Of a stretch of 38,852 nucleotides of DNA, positions 21,561-36,977 are shown piece after piece. The notes beneath the pieces were generated by a model. It was not told the DNA's origin, did not search any database, and worked only from the letters and a program-made list of their open reading frames with translations. The stretch is from Crystallibacter degradans (GTDB lineage Bacteria > Actinomycetota > Actinomycetes > Actinomycetales > Micrococcaceae), in assembly GCF_012952295.1 (NCBI RefSeq), contig NZ_JABBCH010000025.1:1-38852 (forward strand), in the 5' to 3' direction. The translations under genes and the position numbers were made by a program. Position 1 is the first letter of the stretch. Each line of letters opens with the position of its first letter.

Positions 21561-21923
21561 GGGAAGCGGATCGTCCGCTGGCGCGGCCGGCTGTGATGTC
21601 CGGGCCCGTTGTCGCAGCGCTCCGCCGGACCCCGACCAGTTGTGTCTACGACGTTTTTGCTGCTGTCCTTCGGATTCTACGTGCCCGCTCCGCACCGTCA
21701 ACCGGACTCCGTCCGGCTGCGGACCCGGGAATTTTCGTCCGGCGCTTCGCTTTTTTCCTCCCGAAATTCCCCGTGTCCTTGCCCTGCGGGTTGAGCAGTG
21801 ACTCCGACGGGCACAGCTCCGCAAGCTTCGCCAGCAGGCAAAAAACAACCGGGGGAGAGGGGAAGCTGGCCGGTCACCGCGACTGCCCCGCCACCCGGAT
21901 TCCTCAGCAAAGGACGAAGAACG
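21561..21923 (+). promoter_or_regulatory. Duplicated leader, copy A (in front of the DprA-like gene)
   Basis: A stretch of about 363 bases that ends exactly at the ATG of the DprA-like gene and is about 93% identical by eye to 23039-23409 before the DUF4192 gene. Differences include a T5/T7 tract and several 1-2 base indels, so it is not protein coding. It holds two overlapping hairpins that cannot form together, CCGGAC-TCC-GTCCGG (21702-21716) and GTCCG-GCTG-CGGAC (21711-21724). A further stem pairs GGGAATTTTCG (21727-21737) with CGAAATTCCCC (21762-21772), and there are T- or A-tracts at about 21653, 21751 and 21840. The AAAGGA ribosome binding site is inside the repeat. Promoter, structured 5' UTR or single-strand promoter are all possible. 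Confidence 0.75.
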
Positions 21924-22835
21924 ATGAATGATGACCGTACAGCACGCGCCGCACTGACCCGCCTGTTCGAACCCGGCGACACCGTGGGCCTTGCCCTGGT
22001 CGCCAAACACGGTGCCCACGCTGCGTTGAGAATCGCGATCGGCGCCCGCCCGGCCCACCCGTTCGCAGACGTGACAGCCGAACAGCTTGCTGATGCGCTG
22101 GGCCGGTGGGCGCCGCGCGTCCGGACACTGGACGCTAACGCGGACCTTGCCGCCATCGAACACCTCCGCGGCGGATTCCTGACCCCGGACGACCCGCAGT
22201 GGCCCGCCGCATTGAATGACCTGCCGGCCGCACCGTTGGGGCTCTGGTACCGGGGAAACATCACGCACGGTGTCCCCGCCCCGGGACAGTGCGCTGCCGT
22301 GATCGGCTCCCGCGACAGCACCGCCTACGGGGCATCCGTGGCCGGGGAAATCGCCCATGGGCTGGCCCAGCGCGGAATCTGCGTCATGGCTGGCCTCGGC
22401 TACGGAATCGACGCCCAAGGCCACAGGTCGGCACTGGCCGGACACCAAGGCACCGGCCCGGCGACCATCGCCGTTCTGGCCGGCGGGCTGGACCGCGACT
22501 ATCCGGCCGGGAACGCCGACCTTGCCGCCGCCATCCGCGAGACGGGATTGACGCTCTCGGAACTGCCGCCGGGATCCGCGCCGACCCGGTACCGGTTCCT
22601 GATGCGTAACCGGATCATCGCCGCACTCGCGGGTGTGACTGTCGTGGTGGAGGCGCGCTGGCGTTCCGGTGCCCTGAACACGGCACACTACGCAGAAAAC
22701 CTGGGCCGGCTTGTTGGGGCTGTACCGGGCAGCGTCCACAGCGCCAATTCGGCAGGGTGTCACCGGCTGCTGAAAGAAGGCAGCGCCGTGCTGGTCACCG
22801 GCGCGGCCTACGTCGCGGAACTGCTCGCAAGCTAG
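21924..22835 (+). CDS. DprA-like DNA-processing protein
   Basis: Member of the DprA/Smf family: Rossmann-fold proteins that bind single-stranded DNA and load RecA on it. 303 residues, shorter than chromosomal DprA (about 370-400) but with a complete Rossmann core. Seen: VIGSRDSTAYGASVAGEIAH (about 127-146), MAGLGYGIDAQGHRSAL, ATIAVLAGGLDRDYPAGN, LSELPPG, RNRIIAALAGVTVVVEA, RSGALNTAHYAENLGR, AVPGSVHSANSAGCHRLL. ATG 21924 follows AAAGGA at 9 bases; the frame upstream lies in the leader repeat and is not coding. A DprA homologue beside a relaxase suggests a role with the incoming single strand during conjugation rather than in competence (inference). Confidence 0.88.
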   Translation: MNDDRTARAALTRLFEPGDTVGLALVAKHGAHAALRIAIGARPAHPFADVTAEQLADALGRWAPRVRTLDANADLAAIEHLRGGFLTPDDPQWPAALNDLPAAPLGLWYRGNITHGVPAPGQCAAVIGSRDSTAYGASVAGEIAHGLAQRGICVMAGLGYGIDAQGHRSALAGHQGTGPATIAVLAGGLDRDYPAGNADLAAAIRETGLTLSELPPGSAPTRYRFLMRNRIIAALAGVTVVVEARWRSGALNTAHYAENLGRLVGAVPGSVHSANSAGCHRLLKEGSAVLVTGAAYVAELLAS

Positions 22836-22841
22836 AACCGC

Positions 22842-22871
22842 CGGTGGCCGGCCTTTATGGGCCGGTCACCG
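22842..22871 (+). terminator. Hairpin after the DprA-like gene
   Basis: CGGTGGCCGGCC (22842-22853) pairs with GGCCGGTCACCG (22860-22871) through 12 positions with one G-T pair; the loop is TTTATG. It begins 6 bases after the stop codon. No T tract follows. Confidence 0.6.
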
Positions 22872-22873
22872 CG

Positions 22874-22928
22874 GGCGGTCCGCCGCAACGGGCCGGATTC
22901 TCCTGTTGGTTGTCGGCGGCGGACCGCC
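22874..22928. repeat. Perfect 13-bp inverted repeat closing cassette A
   Basis: GGCGGTCCGCCGC (22874-22886) and GCGGCGGACCGCC (22916-22928) are exact inverted copies with 29 bases between. It directly follows the terminator hairpin. A perfect 14-bp inverted repeat sits in the equivalent place after the DUF4192 gene, though its sequence differs. Confidence 0.6.
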
Positions 22929-23038
22929 ACCCGCCCAGGTCATCACGGGGGAACCGGAGGGTACGCGGCCCGCCTAGCCATCGCGGGAACCTGAGGTGAA
23001 AGCCGGGGTACTGGAGATGGGGCTCGCAAGCCTCGCCC

Positions 23039-23409
23039 GGGAATCGGATCGTCCGCTGGCGCGGCCGGCTGTTGAGGTCCGGGCCCGTTGTCGCAGCGCT
23101 CCACCGGACACGGACCAGTTGTGTCTACGACGTTTTTTTGCTGCTGTCCTTCGGATCGTACGTGCCCGCTCCGCACCGTCAACCGGACTCCGTCCGGCTG
23201 CGGACCCGCGGATTTTCGTCCGGCGCTTCGCTTTTTTCCTCCCGAAATTCCCCGTGCCCTTGCCCCTGGCGGGGTTGAGCAGTGACTCCGACGGGCACAG
23301 CTCCGCAAGCTTCGCCAGCAGGCAAAAAACAACGGGGGGAGAGGGGAAGCTGGCCGGTCACGCGACTGCCCCCGCCACCCGGAATCCTCAGCAAAGGACA
23401 CGAAAACCC
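23039..23409 (+). promoter_or_regulatory. Duplicated leader, copy B (in front of the DUF4192 gene)
   Basis: Second copy of the structured leader, about 371 bases ending at the ATG of the DUF4192 gene. The two alternative GTCCGG/CCGGAC hairpins, the CGAAATTCCCC arm, the AAAAAAC tract and the AAAGGA site are all kept, while the ends diverge at once outside 23039 and after the ribosome binding site. The long stem is weaker here (GCGGATTTTCG replaces GGGAATTTTCG). Conservation in two copies beside unrelated genes shows that the leader itself is the functional or mobile unit. Confidence 0.75.
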
Positions 23410-24462
23410 ATGAACAACAAGATCAAAGCTGTTAGCGCCGCCGATATCCTCAGCTACGTTCCCCACACGCTCGGTTTCCAGCCGAAAGACTCGATTGTGC
23501 TGGTCACCCTGACCGGGCCGCTGCTCGGCGCGACGCTGCGGATGGACGCACCGACACCGGGCAGCGATGTGCGTTCGTTCGCGCAGACGTTGACCTCGTT
23601 TGTGTGCAAGGACGAGGCGGCGGACGCCACCTTGTTCATCGTCTACAGTGACGAGAACACCCTGTCAGGCGCACGCCCCCACGCCGACCTGATCGACGCC
23701 CTGCGCGAAGAACTCGAGACGGCGGGCATGCCGATCCGTGACGGCTGGATCGTCACCACGGGCGGGTGGGCGAATTACCGGTGCGAGCCCGGCTGTGAGG
23801 TCCCGGACTGCACCGGCTGGCAGGACACGTCCCTGATTGAGAACAGTATCGTGAGCGCGGAAATGATCTACCGCGGATCCAACCCCGGCACCACCGAGCA
23901 CGCCCCGGCACCGGAGTTCAGCAGCTCCACCAGCAACGCGGACACCATCGACCTCCTCACCGGGAATTACATGGTGGCCGATCCGGTCGACTTCACGACC
24001 GAGCCCATGCTCGCCGCCCGCCACGCCTTCGATGCCGCGATCGGCAACGGCGGCGAACCCGACGAGCCGGAAGCGCTCGAGCTTTGCGCAGCGTTCCAAA
24101 TCAAGCCGGTGCGGGACCGGCTGATGGCCGACATCATCGACACCAGCGATGACGAAACCGTGTTCGGGAAAGTCGTGATCGGCCTGGCCGAGACGGCGCC
24201 GGACTGGGAACGGGTAGACGCAGCGGAGCGGTTGCTGGTGCACCTGCTGCGGTTCGCCCCCGGCGTGTACCGGGCGCCGCTGTTGACCGGGTTGGGTTGG
24301 ATCAACTGGTACAAGGGCAAAGGCACCCCGGCCGGGCTCTACACGGACAAGGCCCTCGCCGCGGATCCCGGTTACCGTTTGGCGGAACTGCTGCGCAAGT
24401 TCTACAACATGGGCATCCTGCCCCGCCCGGCCCTGAACAAGGAAACCGCCTACAAGCACTAA
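23410..24462 (+). CDS. DUF4192 domain-containing protein
   Basis: 350-residue protein of the DUF4192 family, which is widespread in actinobacteria and has no assigned function. Seen: the family N terminus SAADILSYVPHTLGFQPKDS followed by a strand VLVTLTGPLLGATLRMD, a central IVYSDEN strand, the region GGWANYRCEPGCEVPDCTGW containing three cysteines that could bind a metal or form a disulfide, and a helical C-terminal half with RLLVHLLRFAPGVYRAPLLT and a TPR-like run ending KALAADPGYRLAELLRKFYN. No signal peptide or membrane segment. ATG 23410 lies 11 bases after AAAGGA. It shares its leader type with the DprA-like gene, so the two are probably expressed under the same conditions. Confidence 0.85.
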   Translation: MNNKIKAVSAADILSYVPHTLGFQPKDSIVLVTLTGPLLGATLRMDAPTPGSDVRSFAQTLTSFVCKDEAADATLFIVYSDENTLSGARPHADLIDALREELETAGMPIRDGWIVTTGGWANYRCEPGCEVPDCTGWQDTSLIENSIVSAEMIYRGSNPGTTEHAPAPEFSSSTSNADTIDLLTGNYMVADPVDFTTEPMLAARHAFDAAIGNGGEPDEPEALELCAAFQIKPVRDRLMADIIDTSDDETVFGKVVIGLAETAPDWERVDAAERLLVHLLRFAPGVYRAPLLTGLGWINWYKGKGTPAGLYTDKALAADPGYRLAELLRKFYNMGILPRPALNKETAYKH

Positions 24463-26257: not shown

Positions 26258-26721
26258 CACGGCCCCCTCGGGTTGTCGTCGGGTTATACGTTCTTCCACC
26301 CCATTCTGACAGAACCCGGCAGGACACCCGACCTAACGGTTAGAAGCCGGACCCGTGTTGTTCCGGACGCCCGGGCAGACAGGCGCTGACACTCGAGCAG
26401 GGTCACCGCCGGGCAATAGCCGGCCGCTTGCCGGACCGGCGGCGTCAGCCCCCGGTGCGGGCCGCTGGCAGGGGTTACACACACCTCGCGTGAGCCGGAC
26501 CAGGAACCCCTGTGGGTGACCGAGCTGTGCATAACCCTTGCCAGCGTGTATCAACAATCGAAGCTGACGCTTCTCATATGGATACCCGCACCAAGACTGA
26601 TGGACCGAATCCGATGTTTTTCGAACCGATACTCGCACGCTCGCATCAGACTCAAAACGCCGAATCCAGTCACACCTCTTGCATTTCGAATAAACGAGGC
26701 CGATTCCGTTAGAGTCGGGTC
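26258..26721. other. Intergenic region in front of the relaxase, candidate oriT
   Basis: About 460 bases with no gene between divergent genes for the coiled-coil HTH protein and the relaxase. It contains inverted repeats: CTAAC-G-GTTAG (26333-26343), GCCGG-A-CCGGC near 26430, and CAGGGGTT (26469-26476) with AACCCCTG (26505-26512). The right third is clearly more AT-rich (about 26560-26720). MobF relaxases normally act on an oriT next to their own gene, and oriT regions carry such repeats and an AT-rich part. The nick site cannot be named. Confidence 0.4.
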
Positions 26722-29700
26722 ATGATGTCGCTGCACGTTCTCAGTGCTGGCACCGGCTACCTGTACTACACGCAGGAGACCGCCAGCGGTGATGAACTGC
26801 GCGCCGGGGACCGGCAGCTCGGCGACTACTACACCATGGCCGGGCTCCCGCCGGGGCAGTGGCTGGGCCGCGGCGCGACCGCACTCGGCGTCCGGGGGAA
26901 CGTCACCGAGGCGCAGATGGCGAACCTGTTCGGCAAGGGCCGGCACCCGGAGTACGAAGCCATCCTTCACGCCAAGTCCGCTTCCGGCATGGCGGCCAAG
27001 GCAGCCGAAAAGGCCGCCGAGAAGGAAGCCAAACTTGGGCGCAGATACTACGAGTACGCGCCTAAGGACAACAGCCTCGCGCAGGACATCAGCGTCCGCG
27101 AAAGCGACTTCGTACGCCTGCGCGGGCGCAAGCCGAACGCCGCGGAACGGCACCGGATCCGGGCCACCGCGGGCGCGGTGATGTTCCGCGAAGGGCACGG
27201 GCGGCCTCCCGCGTCGAAGGAGGAACTGGGAAAGTTCATCACCGCCGCGCTGCGGCCGCAGCAGAGCGCCGTCGCCGGCTACGACCTGACCTTCACCCCG
27301 GTGAAAAGCATCTCCGTGCTGTGGGCCCTCGGGGATGCCGATACCCGCCGGCTGGTCGAGGACGCCCAGCAGGCCGCGCTGAATGACTCGATCGAGTATC
27401 TGGAAACCCACGCCCTGGCCACCCGCCTGGGCACCAACGGCATCGCCCAAAGCTCCGTCAAGGGCGGACTCATCGCGACCGCGTTCCGGCACCATGACTC
27501 CCGCCTGGGGGACCCCAACCTGCACACCCATGTCGTCGTCTCGAACAAGGTCCAGGACCTTCAGGGCAACTGGAAGAGCATCGACGGTAAGCTCCTGCAC
27601 CGCTCCGCCGTGGCCGTCTCGGAGCACTACAACACCCGGATCCAGGCCTACCTGGAAGAGCACGGCGTCCGGTTCGAAGCCCGCACCGTGAATGGGTCCA
27701 GGCAGCCCGTCATGGAGATCGCCTCAGTCCCGCGGGAACTTGTTTCTTTGTTCTCTAAGCGCAGCGAGGGTATCCGTTCCAGCCTGGCCGAACTGCGCCA
27801 GGCCTACGAGGAACAGCACGGGTACAGCCCCGACCGTGCCGCCCTGATCAAGCTCGCCCAGGCCGCGACACTGGACACCCGGCCCGATAAAGAAGCACCC
27901 AAAACCCTCGCCGAGCAGGCCATCACGTGGCGGCAGGAAGCCGGCACCCTCTACACCGGGGACGACCTCGCTCGGATCACCGGAACCCGCTCCAACACCA
28001 TCCGGCCCATCGCAACAGGGATCGACGTTGACGCCGCAGCCCGCCGGATCATCGACGCGGTCTCGGACAAACGCTCCACCTGGACTGCGCAGAACGTCAT
28101 GGCCGAAGCCAACCGCTGGGCCAAGGAATACGCCTCCGAACATGGGCCGGTTCCGGCCGGAACGGTGGCCGATGTTGTCTCCCGCAGCCTTGGTGCCGCG
28201 TCCGTGCGCATCACGCCGGACCAGGTCCACGGACGCTTCGAGGCACTGACCCGCAACGCCGGCACGGCCGACTTCAACCACCGCACCGACACCCGCTACA
28301 CCTCCAAGAAGATCCTCGAAGACGAGAACCTGCTGCTGCGCGCCGGACGCAAAGACGTCATCCCGGCCGCCTCGATGCAGGACTTCGACGCCGCGCTGGC
28401 CGCCTACCACCAGGCCGTCGCCACGGGCGAGAAATCCCACCCGCTGGACACCGGGCAGATCGCCCTCGCCCGCGAGTTCGCCACCTCATCAAAGCTGCTC
28501 AGCGTCGGCATCGGCGCGGCCGGCACCGGCAAATCCAGCTCCATGGGCCTGGTCCGCGCCGCGATCACCCACGCCGGCAGCCGGGTCATCGGGCTCGCCC
28601 CCTCCGCCGTCGCCGCCGCCAACCTCGGCGGGCAGCTCGGCGTGGCGGCAGCGACCACGGACAAATTCCTGCACGCCAACCGCCACCCCGGCCAAGACCC
28701 CAACCAGGACCCGGACCGGGAACGGACCTCGATGGCCGGTCCGTTTACGGTTACTCCAGGCACGGTCGTGATCGTCGATGAAGCCGGGATGCAGGGCACC
28801 GGCAAACTCGCCGACGTCGTCCGGGTAGTCGAGGCCGGAGGCGGACTCGTCCGGCTCATCGGCGATGACCGGCAGCTCTCAGCCGTCCAGGCAGGCGGCG
28901 CCCTGCGCCTGCTGATCAACGAAATCGGCGCCACCGAACTCGACACCATCCACCGGTTCAACAGCCCCGAAGAAGCGGCAGCCTCCCTGCTGCTGCGCAC
29001 CCCAACGGCCCACGAAGCGGACCCGTTCGCCTGGTACAAAACCAACGGCCGCATCCAGGCCGGGAACATCGACATTGTTGAAGGCCTCGCCTTCGCACGG
29101 TGGCAGGCCCGCCTGAACCAGGGCGACGCCGCGGTGATGATGGCACCCACCAACGAAAGCTCCCAGCGCCTGTCCGAACGCGCGCAGGCCTACCGCATCC
29201 AGACCGGCGAAGTCGCCGGGACAGGGACCTGCGTGCAGCTGCGCGACGGCTCCCGGGCATGGGCCGGCGACCACATCGTCACCCGCTCCAACAACAACGA
29301 GCTGAAGGTCAAGCGCGGCCGGGACGTCGTGAAGAACGGCGACCTGTGGACCGTCGAACAGGCCCACGAAGACGGTTCCCTGTCCGTGGCCCACCTGGAC
29401 CACGGCGGGAAGATCCGCCTGCCCGCGGAGTACGTTTCCGTCCACGTCCACCTTGGCTACGCCCTGACCACCCACCGGGCGCAGGGCATGACCCGCGACG
29501 CCGGCATCCCGATCCTCGACGCGGCAACGTCACGGGAAAACGCCTACGTCGCCGCTACCCGCGGACGCGACGAGAACGTCCTGTTCGTCGCCGTTGAGGA
29601 AGGACAGGACCGCGACACTGTTCTTGCCGCGATCGCCGGGAACCACAGCCAGGATTCCTCCGCGCACGAAACCCTGGCCACCGAATACGACCGGATCAAC

Positions 29701-31197
29701 TCGCCGCTGACCCTGGCCGACCAGTACCGCTACGTCACCGAGGAAGCGAACACTATCCGCATGGCGGCCATGGTCCGGGACGTCCTGGGACCGGACGCGG
29801 AACCATTCATCACCGCCGAATCATGGGGAGCAGTGGCGACCCACCTGGCCGGCGCCGAGCACGGCGGCTGGGACCCGGCCGGGCTGCTGCGCACGGCGGC
29901 AGGCCAACGGGAATTCGACAGCGCAGAGGACCAGTCCGCCGTGCTCGCGTGGCGGCTGGAAAAGATCATGGAGAAGGCACCCGAACTCCTCGCCCAGGCA
30001 GGGGAGCGCCCGCTCCAGCAACTCACCGACGACCAGCTGGCCAAGCTCCGCACCGATGCGGAAGCCGCCGCCGGCACCGCACGGGAAGGCGCCGCAGGCG
30101 ACGGCCCCAAACCGGCCGGGCACTGGGCGAACCGCCGCCACGGCAAGCTCACGGACGCCGAGCTGGAACGCAGGATCTTCACCACCCGGTTCAGCGCGCG
30201 GGAACAATCCTCCATCAACGACGCCGCCGCCGCCCGGCAGGCACATCAACAGCTCCGTGCACTCCAGGACGAGCACCGGATCCGCACCCAGCAGCTCAAA
30301 GACGGACAGCGGACGGCCGAAGCAGCAGAGCGCGGGAGCCGCACCCAGCACGGTGCCGGTGATCCCGTGGCCGCCGCCGGCAACCAGAGGGCGCTCGGGC
30401 AGGAAGCCATCGCAGCACGCGCCCGTGCCGAAGAACGACTCCGCGCCCTCACCCCGCGCCCTGACACCGCCACTGATGTGCCGGACCGGCTGCCGGAATG
30501 GCTGGCCCCCTCACGGGCAGCAGCAAGTGAGTACCTGCCCGGGCCGTGGCGGGAAGAACTCGCCGCACGGCGTCAGGTCCTCGCGGCACGGTTCGAGGAA
30601 CGTGGGCACCTGCTGGCCGTCGACCCCCCGGAATGGGCACAGAAACTCGGGCCGGTGCCGGCACGCCCCGACGCTGCCCGGCAGTGGCGCGACACCGCAG
30701 CAACCCTTGAGGTGTTCCGTGCCCGCTACAACATCCCCGAAACCCAGGCCACACCCGTGCCGGAGCGGTTCAGAAACGACGACATCGGCCGCCAGCTCCA
30801 CGAGCAGGCCGTGACCGTCAGCAAACGCTCCCGCGCACTGCCGGACCACGCCACCGACCAGGACCGGACGCTGGACGCCATCAACGCCGTGGAACGCACC
30901 AAGAACACCCACGCCCTGCAGGCGCCCGCGCAACAGGCCTCCGACACCGACCGCAAGACTCACGGCCAGGAGCCAACAGCCATCACCCCGGCGCAAACGG
31001 AAAAGCCGCGCCTGATGACCAGGATGGAGAAAATGGTCGCCGAACAGCAGGCTAAGAAAACCGTGGAGCAGAAACCGGCAGAGCAGAAGGCCCCGGAAAC
31101 CGACGCCCAACGGCAGGCCAGGCTTGCCGCAGAACGCGCCGTGCGCGAACAACAGCGGGCAACAGACGAGCTACGCGGTCCGGGACTCGGCCTGTAG
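26722..31197 (+). CDS. MobF-family conjugative relaxase-helicase (TrwC/TraI-like)
   Basis: Nicks oriT, stays bound to the 5' end and unwinds the transferred strand. 1,491 residues. Seen: N-terminal TrwC relaxase domain (about 1-320) with candidate catalytic tyrosines Tyr13, Tyr15 and Tyr16 (GYLYY), YDLTFTPVKSISVLWALGD, and the metal-binding histidines His257/His258 and His268, His270 (DPNLHTHVVVSN). Then an SF1/RecD-like helicase (about 570-960): Walker A GAAGTGKSS with Lys604, Walker B VVIVDEAGM with Asp686-Glu687, and motif ALTTHRAQGMT near 914. The last about 350 residues are charged, Ala/Arg/Gln-rich and probably coiled coil. Start ATG 26722 or 26725; no clear ribosome binding site, so the transcript may be nearly leaderless. 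No type IV secretion genes lie in the window. Confidence 0.95.
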   Translation: MMSLHVLSAGTGYLYYTQETASGDELRAGDRQLGDYYTMAGLPPGQWLGRGATALGVRGNVTEAQMANLFGKGRHPEYEAILHAKSASGMAAKAAEKAAEKEAKLGRRYYEYAPKDNSLAQDISVRESDFVRLRGRKPNAAERHRIRATAGAVMFREGHGRPPASKEELGKFITAALRPQQSAVAGYDLTFTPVKSISVLWALGDADTRRLVEDAQQAALNDSIEYLETHALATRLGTNGIAQSSVKGGLIATAFRHHDSRLGDPNLHTHVVVSNKVQDLQGNWKSIDGKLLHRSAVAVSEHYNTRIQAYLEEHGVRFEARTVNGSRQPVMEIASVPRELVSLFSKRSEGIRSSLAELRQAYEEQHGYSPDRAALIKLAQAATLDTRPDKEAPKTLAEQAITWRQEAGTLYTGDDLARITGTRSNTIRPIATGIDVDAAARRIIDAVSDKRSTWTAQNVMAEANRWAKEYASEHGPVPAGTVADVVSRSLGAASVRITPDQVHGRFEALTRNAGTADFNHRTDTRYTSKKILEDENLLLRAGRKDVIPAASMQDFDAALAAYHQAVATGEKSHPLDTGQIALAREFATSSKLLSVGIGAAGTGKSSSMGLVRAAITHAGSRVIGLAPSAVAAANLGGQLGVAAATTDKFLHANRHPGQDPNQDPDRERTSMAGPFTVTPGTVVIVDEAGMQGTGKLADVVRVVEAGGGLVRLIGDDRQLSAVQAGGALRLLINEIGATELDTIHRFNSPEEAAASLLLRTPTAHEADPFAWYKTNGRIQAGNIDIVEGLAFARWQARLNQGDAAVMMAPTNESSQRLSERAQAYRIQTGEVAGTGTCVQLRDGSRAWAGDHIVTRSNNNELKVKRGRDVVKNGDLWTVEQAHEDGSLSVAHLDHGGKIRLPAEYVSVHVHLGYALTTHRAQGMTRDAGIPILDAATSRENAYVAATRGRDENVLFVAVEEGQDRDTVLAAIAGNHSQDSSAHETLATEYDRINSPLTLADQYRYVTEEANTIRMAAMVRDVLGPDAEPFITAESWGAVATHLAGAEHGGWDPAGLLRTAAGQREFDSAEDQSAVLAWRLEKIMEKAPELLAQAGERPLQQLTDDQLAKLRTDAEAAAGTAREGAAGDGPKPAGHWANRRHGKLTDAELERRIFTTRFSAREQSSINDAAAARQAHQQLRALQDEHRIRTQQLKDGQRTAEAAERGSRTQHGAGDPVAAAGNQRALGQEAIAARARAEERLRALTPRPDTATDVPDRLPEWLAPSRAAASEYLPGPWREELAARRQVLAARFEERGHLLAVDPPEWAQKLGPVPARPDAARQWRDTAATLEVFRARYNIPETQATPVPERFRNDDIGRQLHEQAVTVSKRSRALPDHATDQDRTLDAINAVERTKNTHALQAPAQQASDTDRKTHGQEPTAITPAQTEKPRLMTRMEKMVAEQQAKKTVEQKPAEQKAPETDAQRQARLAAERAVREQQRATDELRGPGLGL

Positions 31198-32809: not shown

Positions 32810-33847
32810 ATGGCTGCCCGTGAGATTGCCCTACCCGACGACTATCAGGATCTCCTTGGGTTACTAAAGGAGCGGGTTCGCAGCATCCGCGCTCAGGCTC
32901 TGCGCACTGTGAACACCCAGTTGATCGAGCTGTACTGGTCCATCGGGCGGGACATCCTTCAGCGTCAGGAAGTCCAAGGGTGGGGTAGCGGCGTTGTTGG
33001 CAGGCTTGCCGAGGACCTGCGGGCGGAATTCCCGGAGATCTCCGGCTTCTCCCGACGGAATCTGCAGTACATGAGGAGCATGGCCGAACTCTGGGGGAGC
33101 GGACCAAATGTGCCACAGCTTGTGGCACATTTGCCCTGGGGCCACATCCGTATCCTGATCGACAAGCTCGATGACCGCAAAGCGCTGGACTGGTACGCCG
33201 GGGCAGCTGTTGAGTACGGGTGGTCCCGGAACGTGCTGCTGAACATGATCATGGGCCAGGCGATGGAGCGGACAGGTTCCGCGCCCTCGAATTTCGCGGA
33301 AGTGCTTCCGGCGCCGGGGTCGGAGTTGGTACAGCAGGCAGCGAAGGACCCGTACAACTTTGAATTCCTGGGCCTGACCGGTGAAGTGGCAGAGCGGGAC
33401 CTCGAGCAGCGGCTGACTGACCGGATTGTCGAGACGCTGCGCGAGCTCGGTCCGGGCTTCGCATTCGTTGGGCGGCAGGTGCATCTGGAGGTCGGGGGCG
33501 ACGACTTCTATATCGACCTGCTGTTCTTCCACGTCGAGCAGCTGCGCTATTACGTCTTCGAGCTGAAGACGGGCAGGTTCCAGCCCGAGTATGCCGGCAA
33601 GCTGAACTTCTACGTCGCCGTCGTCGACGACCTCATGAAGCGCCAGTTTCACAACGAGACGGTCGGGATCCTGATCTGCGGCAGCAAAAACGATCACACC
33701 GTCCGCTACAGCCTGGGACATTCGACATCGCCGATGGCCGTTTCCACATATACATATGAGCAGTTGCCGGCCGCGGACAAGGCGCTGGTCCCGGGGGAGG
33801 ACCAGCTCACCGCCGCCTTGGACCAGCTCCCAGCGGACGACTCCTAA
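32810..33847 (+). CDS. YhcG/DUF1016-family PD-(D/E)XK nuclease
   Basis: 345-residue protein of the YhcG group, found in mobile regions and some defence loci. Seen: N-terminal DUF1016 helical domain (about residues 8-150) with ALRTVNTQLIELYWSIGRDI, GWGSGVVGRLAEDLRAEFPE and GFSRRNLQYMRSMAELWG, and LPWGHIRILIDKLDD. The C-terminal nuclease core has Asp236 in DDFYIDLLFFH and Glu251-x-Lys253 in VFELKTGRF, followed by KLNFYVAVVDD, so the catalytic set is intact. Start ATG with GAGG close upstream. It is a lone gene with no methylase or restriction partner nearby. Function in the cell is not established; DNA cleavage in defence or element maintenance is the likely field. Confidence 0.9.
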   Translation: MAAREIALPDDYQDLLGLLKERVRSIRAQALRTVNTQLIELYWSIGRDILQRQEVQGWGSGVVGRLAEDLRAEFPEISGFSRRNLQYMRSMAELWGSGPNVPQLVAHLPWGHIRILIDKLDDRKALDWYAGAAVEYGWSRNVLLNMIMGQAMERTGSAPSNFAEVLPAPGSELVQQAAKDPYNFEFLGLTGEVAERDLEQRLTDRIVETLRELGPGFAFVGRQVHLEVGGDDFYIDLLFFHVEQLRYYVFELKTGRFQPEYAGKLNFYVAVVDDLMKRQFHNETVGILICGSKNDHTVRYSLGHSTSPMAVSTYTYEQLPAADKALVPGEDQLTAALDQLPADDS

Positions 33848-36280: not shown

Positions 36281-36977
36281 CTGAGACTTTTGGACAACTC
36301 GGTTATGATTTGCACGTGTCGCCTGTGAAACAACACGTGAATTTGTCCGATAACAGCCGAGTTGTCGTGAGTGTCTGGCTACTTGTCCAACAGACGAGCG
36401 TGGATTCAGGGGTGCTCAACCGGGTGTTGTGACGGCCGATCTGTCCAAACCTTTGGCTGGAGAGTGAGCAGACCGATTTTTCTGTGGCCGTCAGTAGCCG
36501 CGAACGCAGCCGGGCCGCAGGTCGTCGAGGCTGACTCCGAACTCGGCAGTTCTGCTGGTAATGATGTCGATTGCGATCTCGACGAGTTCGTTGGACACAC
36601 CGCTGAGACTTTTGGACAACTCAGTTGTAATTCGGACATGTCGCCTGTGAAACAACAGAATTGTGTCCGATAACAGCCGAGTTGTCGTGAGTGTCTGGCT
36701 ACTTGTCCAACAGACGAGCGTGGATTCAGGGGTGCTCAACCGGGTGTTGTGACGGCCGATCTGTCCAAACCTTTGGCTGGAGAGTGAGCAGACCGATTTT
36801 TCTGTGGCCGTCAGTAGCCGCGAACGCAGCCGGGCCGCAGGTCGTCGAGGCTGACTCCGAACTCGGCAGTTCTGCTGGTAATGATGTCGATTGCGATCTC
36901 GACGAGTTCGTTGGACACACCGCTGAGACTTTTGGACAACTCAGTTGTAATTCGGACATGTCGCCTGTGAAACAACA
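36281..36977. repeat. Tandem direct repeat, about 320-322 bp, two full copies and a 55-bp partial third
   Basis: Units start at CTGAGACTTTTGGACAAC: 36281-36602, 36603-36922 and a partial 36923-36977. The two full copies are nearly identical; they differ mainly in the first 80 bases. Each unit contains GACAACTC and CGAGTTGTC arms around a short non-coding core. Plus-strand frames repeat too but look random. On the minus strand each unit carries a better-looking frame (TTELSKSLSGVSNELVEIAI, then DIITSRTAEFGVSLDDLRP) ending at 36491 and 36811, with no clear start. Confidence 0.85.

Follow-up and report, generated by a model that had tools for sequence, protein, structure and literature searches.

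The 38,852-nucleotide window analysed here, contig 43 (NZ_JABBCH010000025.1) of the 4.96-Mb draft genome of Crystallibacter degradans, carries two near-identical leaders, each ending at the start codon of a different gene, one dprA-like and the other encoding a DUF4192 protein. Judging from sequence comparison and predicted folding, each leader very probably acts as a single-stranded-DNA promoter, similar in kind to Frpo, for genes in the leading region of a conjugative plasmid. Single-stranded promoters have been reported for F and ColIb-P9. More generally, conjugative plasmids and integrated elements of the Actinomycetes are likely to carry a single-stranded-DNA promoter family of their own, unrelated in sequence to Frpo, in which the -10 hexamer lies open in a hairpin bubble. 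Such promoters have so far been demonstrated in plasmids of gut bacteria; here we infer them for soil actinobacteria. The leaders and the genes behind them are as follows.

21561 to 21923, minus strand (presumed functional and transferred strand): leader copy A, the whole element, 5′ of dprA
23039 to 23409, minus strand: leader copy B, 5′ of the DUF4192 gene, placed by alignment, BLAST and the family model
21924 to 22835, plus strand: dprA-like gene (Pfam PF02481), start ATG at 21924
23410 to 24462, plus strand: DUF4192 gene (Pfam PF13830), start ATG at 23410
21908 to 21915, plus strand: ribosome-binding-site-like stretch CAAAGGAC of dprA, seen in the sequence
23392 to 23399, plus strand: ribosome-binding-site-like stretch CAAAGGAC of the DUF4192 gene, seen in the sequence

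An original prediction, made from the letters of the window, had described a repeat of about 93% identity that ends exactly at two start codons and precedes unrelated genes. This description was borne out. The copies could be aligned over their full length with several small gaps (by BLAST, 94.5% identity in 362 columns; in the family model, 93.3% when ungapped columns are compared), similarity fades beyond both copies, and the Pfam assignments agree with the genes named. A coding function for the leader was rejected on account of the gaps between the copies and of annotated homologues that begin 3′ of the leader. An open reading frame (ORF) at 22996-24462 does stay open across leader B, which looks like chance because the annotated homologues begin 3′ of it.

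In the mechanism proposed here, the plasmid would enter the recipient as a single-stranded T-strand, which we take to be the minus strand of the window. The leader on the entering strand would fold into a long hairpin, the 3′ arm of which would provide the non-template strand with its -35 and -10 hexamers, the -10 lying in a mostly unpaired bubble, and the 5′ arm of which would be the template, continuing directly into the gene. Transcription by the host polymerase, carrying the main sigma factor, would presumably begin in the right-hand part of the leader, for copy A near 21820-21835 as estimated from the -10, and the mRNA of dprA and of the DUF4192 gene would be made ahead of the second strand. 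On conversion to double-stranded DNA the hairpin would be lost and the hexamers would face away from the gene, presumably shutting the promoter off. The leader RNA may also prime second-strand synthesis. Use of the promoter into the gene requires that the minus strand is the transferred strand. In double-stranded DNA the same hexamers, in every copy that has them, would direct transcription to the left and away from the gene, which argues for the single-stranded-DNA reading.

The leader is neither confined to two copies nor a plain local duplication. With one copy as BLAST query, 12 matches were found on six contigs of the same genome (35, 43, 45, 47, 51 and 56); the strain therefore probably holds several related conjugative plasmids. 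A BLAST search of PLSDB plasmids gave 188 leader places in 63 records, all of them Arthrobacter, Paenarthrobacter, Pseudarthrobacter or Citricoccus and 44 typed as conjugative. Among the records listed there are one to six places per plasmid, and most hold several. Within the bacterial family, 114 of 395 genomes, in 15 of 32 genera, contain a match. The original prediction had proposed a blastn search, with many plasmid copies bearing compensatory changes as support for a structured element, and a local-only duplication lacking covariation as its refutation. The 188 plasmid places and the covariation described below agree with the former and exclude the latter. No match was found among 50,697 phage records, and a phage origin was rejected; a named Rfam element was likewise rejected, with 0 matches above the gathering threshold in the window.

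A profile search returned 180 matches in 71 sources, all of which had been fetched for having a match. After removal of 29 partial copies, 151 near-complete copies were kept, 145 of them distinct, and the family model spans 353 positions. For 121 labelled copies the closest other copy was located: at the same locus before another gene (30 copies), at another locus before the same gene (44) or at another locus before another gene (47). From these counts, leaders seem to have been exchanged both between genes and between plasmids. Leaders were also found on chromosome-sized contigs (L020, a contig of 4.76 Mb, L044, L068 and L106). In L020 and L106 a relaxase gene adjoins the leader on such a contig. 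These leaders may thus belong to conjugative elements that have integrated and use the same system.

The fold of the leader is formed by a core within each copy, laid out below.

21652 to 21850, minus strand: core hairpin of copy A (consensus fold; single-stranded-DNA fold z -3.20; compensatory changes in the family)
23133 to 23334, minus strand: core hairpin of copy B (single-stranded-DNA fold z -2.84)
21659 to 21668: left base arm of copy A (GCTGCTGTCC), pairing with the right base arm at 21831-21849
21831 to 21849: right base arm of copy A (CCAGCAGGCAAAAAACAAC), on the minus strand the presumed template arm into dprA
21681 to 21687: left middle arm of copy A, GTGCCCG, pairing with CGGGCAC at 21808-21814
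21808 to 21814: right middle arm of copy A, CGGGCAC
23140 to 23149: left base arm of copy B
23315 to 23333: right base arm of copy B, the presumed template arm into the DUF4192 gene
23162 to 23168: left middle arm of copy B, GTGCCCG
23292 to 23298: right middle arm of copy B, CGGGCAC

RNAalifold returned a long hairpin for the 145 copies on the minus strand (-152 with RNA parameters, -93 with DNA parameters), compared with -124 and -74 respectively on the plus strand. On a tree of these copies, 65 compensatory double changes from one Watson-Crick pair to another were counted, in 30 of the 66 core pairs, whereas 40 simulations that kept the tree and the column rates averaged 6.5 (maximum 15), and each of six slid registers gave 5-8. 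Watson-Crick cells made up 82.9% of the fold pairs, against 69.4 in the null (maximum 72.9). A pairwise covariation scan yielded 12 significant column pairs, and 5 of these are fold pairs (expected share 0.3%). Pairs changed to minus-strand G-T 146 times (null 118) and to minus-strand A-C, equivalent to plus-strand G-T, only 50 times (null 74, null minimum 51). As far as pairing changes can tell, this favours the minus strand.

Single-stranded-DNA folds of the core point the same way. In 49 copies, folded with rare insert columns removed, the mean z score was -3.65 for the minus strand and -3.0 for the plus strand, the minus strand being lower in 36 of the 49. For the two window copies the exact sequence was folded. 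On the minus strand the core of copy A scored -3.20, a value matched by 0 of 200 shuffles, and that of copy B -2.84, matched by 2 of 200; on the plus strand the core of copy A scored -1.45. By the 65 compensatory events and these two z scores, the single strand folds into a stem-loop, and the signal comes from the core alone and the alignment, not from the whole element.

Within this hairpin, promoter hexamers lie on the strand antisense to the gene.

21696 to 21701, minus strand: -35 of copy A, TTGACG
21674 to 21679, minus strand: -10 of copy A, TAGAAT, in a mostly unpaired bubble
23177 to 23182, minus strand: -35 of copy B, TTGACG
23155 to 23160, minus strand: -10 of copy B, TACGAT

Read on the minus strand, the 3′ arm of the hairpin contains T[A/T]GAC, 16 nucleotides and TANNAT, and the spacer is 16 nucleotides long in 143 of 145 copies. 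The -10 is strongly conserved at T1 (118 copies), A2 (144), A5 (145) and T6 (145), with positions 3 and 4 variable. The -35 is conserved at T1 (141), G3 (144), A4 (141) and C5 (103), while its position 2 covaries with its pairing partner (TA in 82 copies, AT in 51). A strict promoter rule was satisfied on the minus strand by 97 of the 145 copies, all at one column (mean of 7.5 in shuffled copies), and on the plus strand by 0 of 145. A closer inspection of the 49 folded copies revealed that the first five positions of the -10 have mean unpaired probabilities of 0.59-0.90 and T6 one of 0.17, compared with a core mean of 0.35 and with 0.07-0.30 across the -35. The -35 and the stem beyond are paired, as T6 mostly is. 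A2 and T6 of the leader -10 correspond to the two positions at which sigma recognises the bases of the single strand. In the folded strand, a gene-facing -35/-10 is rebuilt by means of the strand's own arm, with the strict rule satisfied in the 97 copies.

The direction of transfer was approached through the relaxase genes that accompany the leaders.

26722 to 31197, plus strand: MobF/TrwC relaxase gene (PF08751, E 2.1e-81), 3′ of the two led genes and sharing their strand
26552 to 26572, minus strand: candidate origin of transfer (oriT) motif CAATCGAA (minus strand TTCGATTG), upstream of the relaxase gene and with a presumed nick site

The relaxase gene of the window starts 2.3 kb downstream of the DUF4192 gene. 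Across the sources, leader and relaxase share a strand in all 77 copy-relaxase pairs (43 MOBP, 34 MOBF), and the leader is always oriented toward the relaxase. When a plasmid held twice (L017 = L031) is counted once, this becomes 74 of 74 pairs from 29 sources. The complete plasmid pChr15 and symmetric stretches of pSI-1 and FB24 plasmid 2 have the same orientation. Directly 5′ of the relaxase genes, between them and the leaders, there are conserved non-coding blocks. Read on the minus strand, each has a nick-like sequence after an inverted repeat, and these blocks support the minus strand as the transferred one. MOBP loci have TAGCTTGC as their nick-like sequence, which could be aligned in 10 of the 15; the MOBP nick known from the literature, TATCCTGC, adjoins an inverted repeat, according to the relevant passage of its source (PMC3772185). 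Alignment of 14 MobF upstream regions gave CGATTGTGTGG in 6 and TTCGATTG in 11. This MOBF candidate motif resembles the nick regions of F and R388. On the strength of the 77 pairs and of the nick-like motifs, imperfect as these are, the transferred strand would be the template of the gene, and nicking at these motifs is a prediction.

More distant relatives were sought with a covariance model of the leader in 297 genomes of the order and 394 of the class. Matches were found in 17 genomes of the order, nine of them in five other families, and the class search gave 7 genomes, of which three belong to a single family outside the order. The distant set examined comprises 27 places, namely 20 from a set of 23 matches (the three weakest, with E 0.19 or worse, were omitted) and all 7 from that outside family. 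A TTG, 16 nucleotides and xAxxxT occur in the expected arm at 20 of the 27 places, compared with 0.6 in shuffles and 0 on the opposite strand. These leaders stand 5′ of DUF4192 genes (L105, L106, L114, L124), ParB-like genes (L112, L121 and, with a short frame between, L111), a DprA gene (L112), NrdH-redoxin-like genes (L108, below the NCBI cut-off, and L110, above it) and ArdC anti-restriction genes (L122, L123); others precede frames of no known family. Among the distant places with a recognisable relaxase, the orientation rule holds in L106 (MobF) and L111 (MOBP). For L110, whose relaxase is found at the opposite side of its contig, the rule would apply only if the contig were circular.

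The genes behind the leaders recur. There were 169 matches that reach the 3′ end of the model, and 162 of them are followed by an ORF under the start-choice rule: 46 ParB-like, 43 DUF4192, 32 from an unnamed family of about 142 residues, 19 DprA and 22 others, a tally in which one plasmid was entered twice and tandem partial copies 5′ of one gene were counted twice. The model ends 0-14 nucleotides 5′ of the chosen start codon in at least 134 of the 162 cases, a count that leans that way owing to a rule that favours starts near the model end. A common gene order is DprA, DUF4192, small genes, ParB-like and the relaxase gene; FB24 plasmid 2 differs in having a 143-aa gene where DprA would stand. 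Members of the ~142-aa family (L011:1069-1497 and 31 relatives) are acidic, with a median isoelectric point of 4.5. The predicted structure is confident (pLDDT 89.3), and its comparison with the PDB gave no match at E 0.001 or better; the family is a candidate anti-defence protein. The DUF4192 protein of the window (23410-24462) also gave a confident model, again with no PDB match at E 0.001 or better. Its best match, RadC at E 0.018, is a weak, non-significant resemblance and can serve as a lead only.

The leader family shares its organisation with known systems. As in the Frpo or single-strand initiation (ssi) elements of F and ColIb-P9, a long hairpin on the transferred strand would rebuild the -35 and -10. 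As in F, near-identical copies are repeated 5′ of leading genes, the genes would point toward oriT, and a ParB-like gene lies in the same region. The 462-bp segment 5′ of ssb in F, corresponding to Frpo2/Frpo1, recurs at 90% identity 5.4 kb away, and a passage on Frpo2 and Frpo1 gives '92%' identity and 'about 5 kb apart' (PMC9849209). Unlike Frpo/ssi, the leader belongs to GC-rich actinobacterial hosts and precedes genes for DprA, DUF4192, ParB-like and ~142-aa proteins, with ArdC in the distant relatives, and its function is a prediction. The right 136 bases of copy A had no match in 20,395 E. coli records, and plasmid-collection matches to the whole copy came from Arthrobacter-group records only. 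Since no sequence similarity to Frpo was found, the leader does not appear to belong to the Frpo sequence family.

In the pLS20-family plasmids, EGeRS1 leaders are described as conserved, 400-600 bp long, rich in inverted repeats and repeated 5′ of establishment genes such as ardC (PMC8708921), and in this they resemble the present leader. In the passages concerned, the authors judged a single-stranded promoter highly unlikely for EGeRS1, given a fold without promoter, longer repeats and a transferred strand that is the non-template (PMC8708921). By the same considerations the present leader falls outside EGeRS1: its fold contains a promoter, and its transferred strand, as presumed above, is the template.

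The leaders are almost certainly the repeats reported by Mihasan & Brandsch in 2016, cited as DNA repeats 5′ of Duf4192, DprA and ParB in 12 Arthrobacter/Paenarthrobacter plasmids (PMC10494377) and as DNA repeats in conjugal transfer modules (PMC6305408). The original prediction knew of no named element that matches the leader, but repeats at the same place had already been reported. For pAO1, a plasmid of Paenarthrobacter nicotinovorans, a conjugation frequency of 10^-3 to 10^-2 per donor is given (PMC10494377). Where the citing papers mention them, the repeats are discussed in terms of partitioning, conjugation and common ancestry, not as single-stranded promoters (PMC10494377, PMC6305408). 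Among open-licence papers, we found none that reads such actinobacterial plasmid repeats as single-stranded promoters. A large survey of leading regions is described as having queried five known Frpo/ssi sequences together with candidates from four islands (PMC11541004).

Several observations weigh against a single-stranded promoter. The strict promoter rule fails in 48 of the 145 copies, the commonest -35 is TAGACG (51 copies), which fits the consensus at 4 of 6 positions, and some copies have no base stem. Applied to the two Frpo stretches of F, the same rule gave no site on the minus strand; it is therefore not a general Frpo detector. As to the fold, the structure and the counted pairs were both taken from the same minus-strand alignment, which biases the pair counts and the G-T/A-C comparison in favour of that fold and strand, and the slid registers and column-matched null only partly remove this bias. 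Moreover, 7 of the 12 significant covarying pairs lie outside the fold (six among columns 88-98, one at 218-222), and the whole 363-base copy A shows no unusual stability on the plus or the minus strand. In principle, a fold under selection on the minus strand might also be that of an antisense RNA. As to orientation, a relaxase was recognised in only 30 of the 71 sources, and genome loci were sampled with more downstream sequence, which favours 'toward' though not strand agreement. The MOBP candidate TAGCTTGC agrees with TATCCTGC at 6 of 8 bases (core hexamer, 4 of 6), the MobF region of the window itself (26552-26572) is a diverged version, and the nick sites are assigned by motif. In the distant set the pattern was fixed after looking and does not fit 7 of the 27 places, several of the places share a genome or lie in related ones, and the -35 is part of the model used for the search.

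Other readings explain parts of these data. A structured mRNA leader on the gene strand, riboswitch-like or acting in translational control, would fit an element that is conserved and structured, ends at the start codon and has a ribosome-binding-site-like stretch inside, and the plus-strand core does beat its shuffles on average (mean z -3.0, 49 copies). It is nonetheless disfavoured because of the antisense tolerance of G-T, the minus-strand fold of copy A (-3.20 versus -1.45) and the antisense promoter. Pairing changes are biased toward the antisense strand, the minus z score is lower in 36 of 49 copies as well as in copy A, the conserved antisense -35/-10 would be left unexplained, and Rfam has no match in the window; we regard such a leader as highly improbable. 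The shared regulatory element first suggested for the repeat thus stands in so far as it is structured, precedes unrelated genes, occurs in plasmid copies and covaries, but a structured mRNA leader is not its best reading. Only slightly less improbable is an ordinary double-stranded promoter or operator of an establishment-gene regulon. The leader is common to the same genes in many plasmids, and the EGeRS2 repressor system of the pLS20-family plasmids is a described precedent in Bacillus (PMC8708921). However, the strict promoter rule is satisfied on the gene strand by none of the 145 copies, the conserved promoter is directed away from the gene, and an operator needs no compensatory changes across a 200-base hairpin.

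The hairpin might instead be a single-strand initiation site only, recruiting RNA polymerase or primase for the second strand, with gene expression incidental. Frpo itself, to go by the title of a 1997 paper by Masai and Arai, is reportedly used for primer RNA synthesis and so also has this role. One such site would do, though, yet most of the plasmids listed hold several copies, mostly just 5′ of a start codon, and the chance that initiation is the sole function appears very small. Smallest of all is the chance of a ParB-linked role, in which ParB would bind the repeat for plasmid stability: 46 of the 162 frames behind leaders are ParB-like, but the window has two copies and no tblastn match to the ParB-like protein, the copies stand at the starts of several gene families, and neither the fold nor the promoter signals would be explained.

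If the single-stranded promoter reading is true, Gram-positive bacteria would have a built-in programme by which DNA-protecting, anti-restriction (ArdC) and unknown leading genes are expressed within minutes of entry. The actinobacterial family of 145 distinct copies, which is backed by covariation and has relatives in five further families within the order and in one beyond it, offers concrete test sequences. DUF4192, the ~142-aa family and plasmid DprA would be marked as probable establishment or anti-defence genes, and the leader family itself provides a search model for further leading regions.

In four copies (L034:788-988, L053:12679-12875, L054:13344-13538 and L063:6422-6629) the left arm is truncated just beyond the -10 stretch and the base stem is absent. 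The letters at this point fit the end of a ~46-aa reading frame seen 5′ of other leaders, and this frame would read on into the leader. Elsewhere in the window, positions 36344-36643 and 36664-36963 form a perfect direct duplication of 300 bases (100% identity, 320 bases from start to start). The two frames over it had no Pfam match, and the duplication is either very recent or an assembly artefact. Finally, a gene of the YhcG/DUF1016 nuclease family at 32810-33847 adjoins the relaxase gene and is a possible defence gene.

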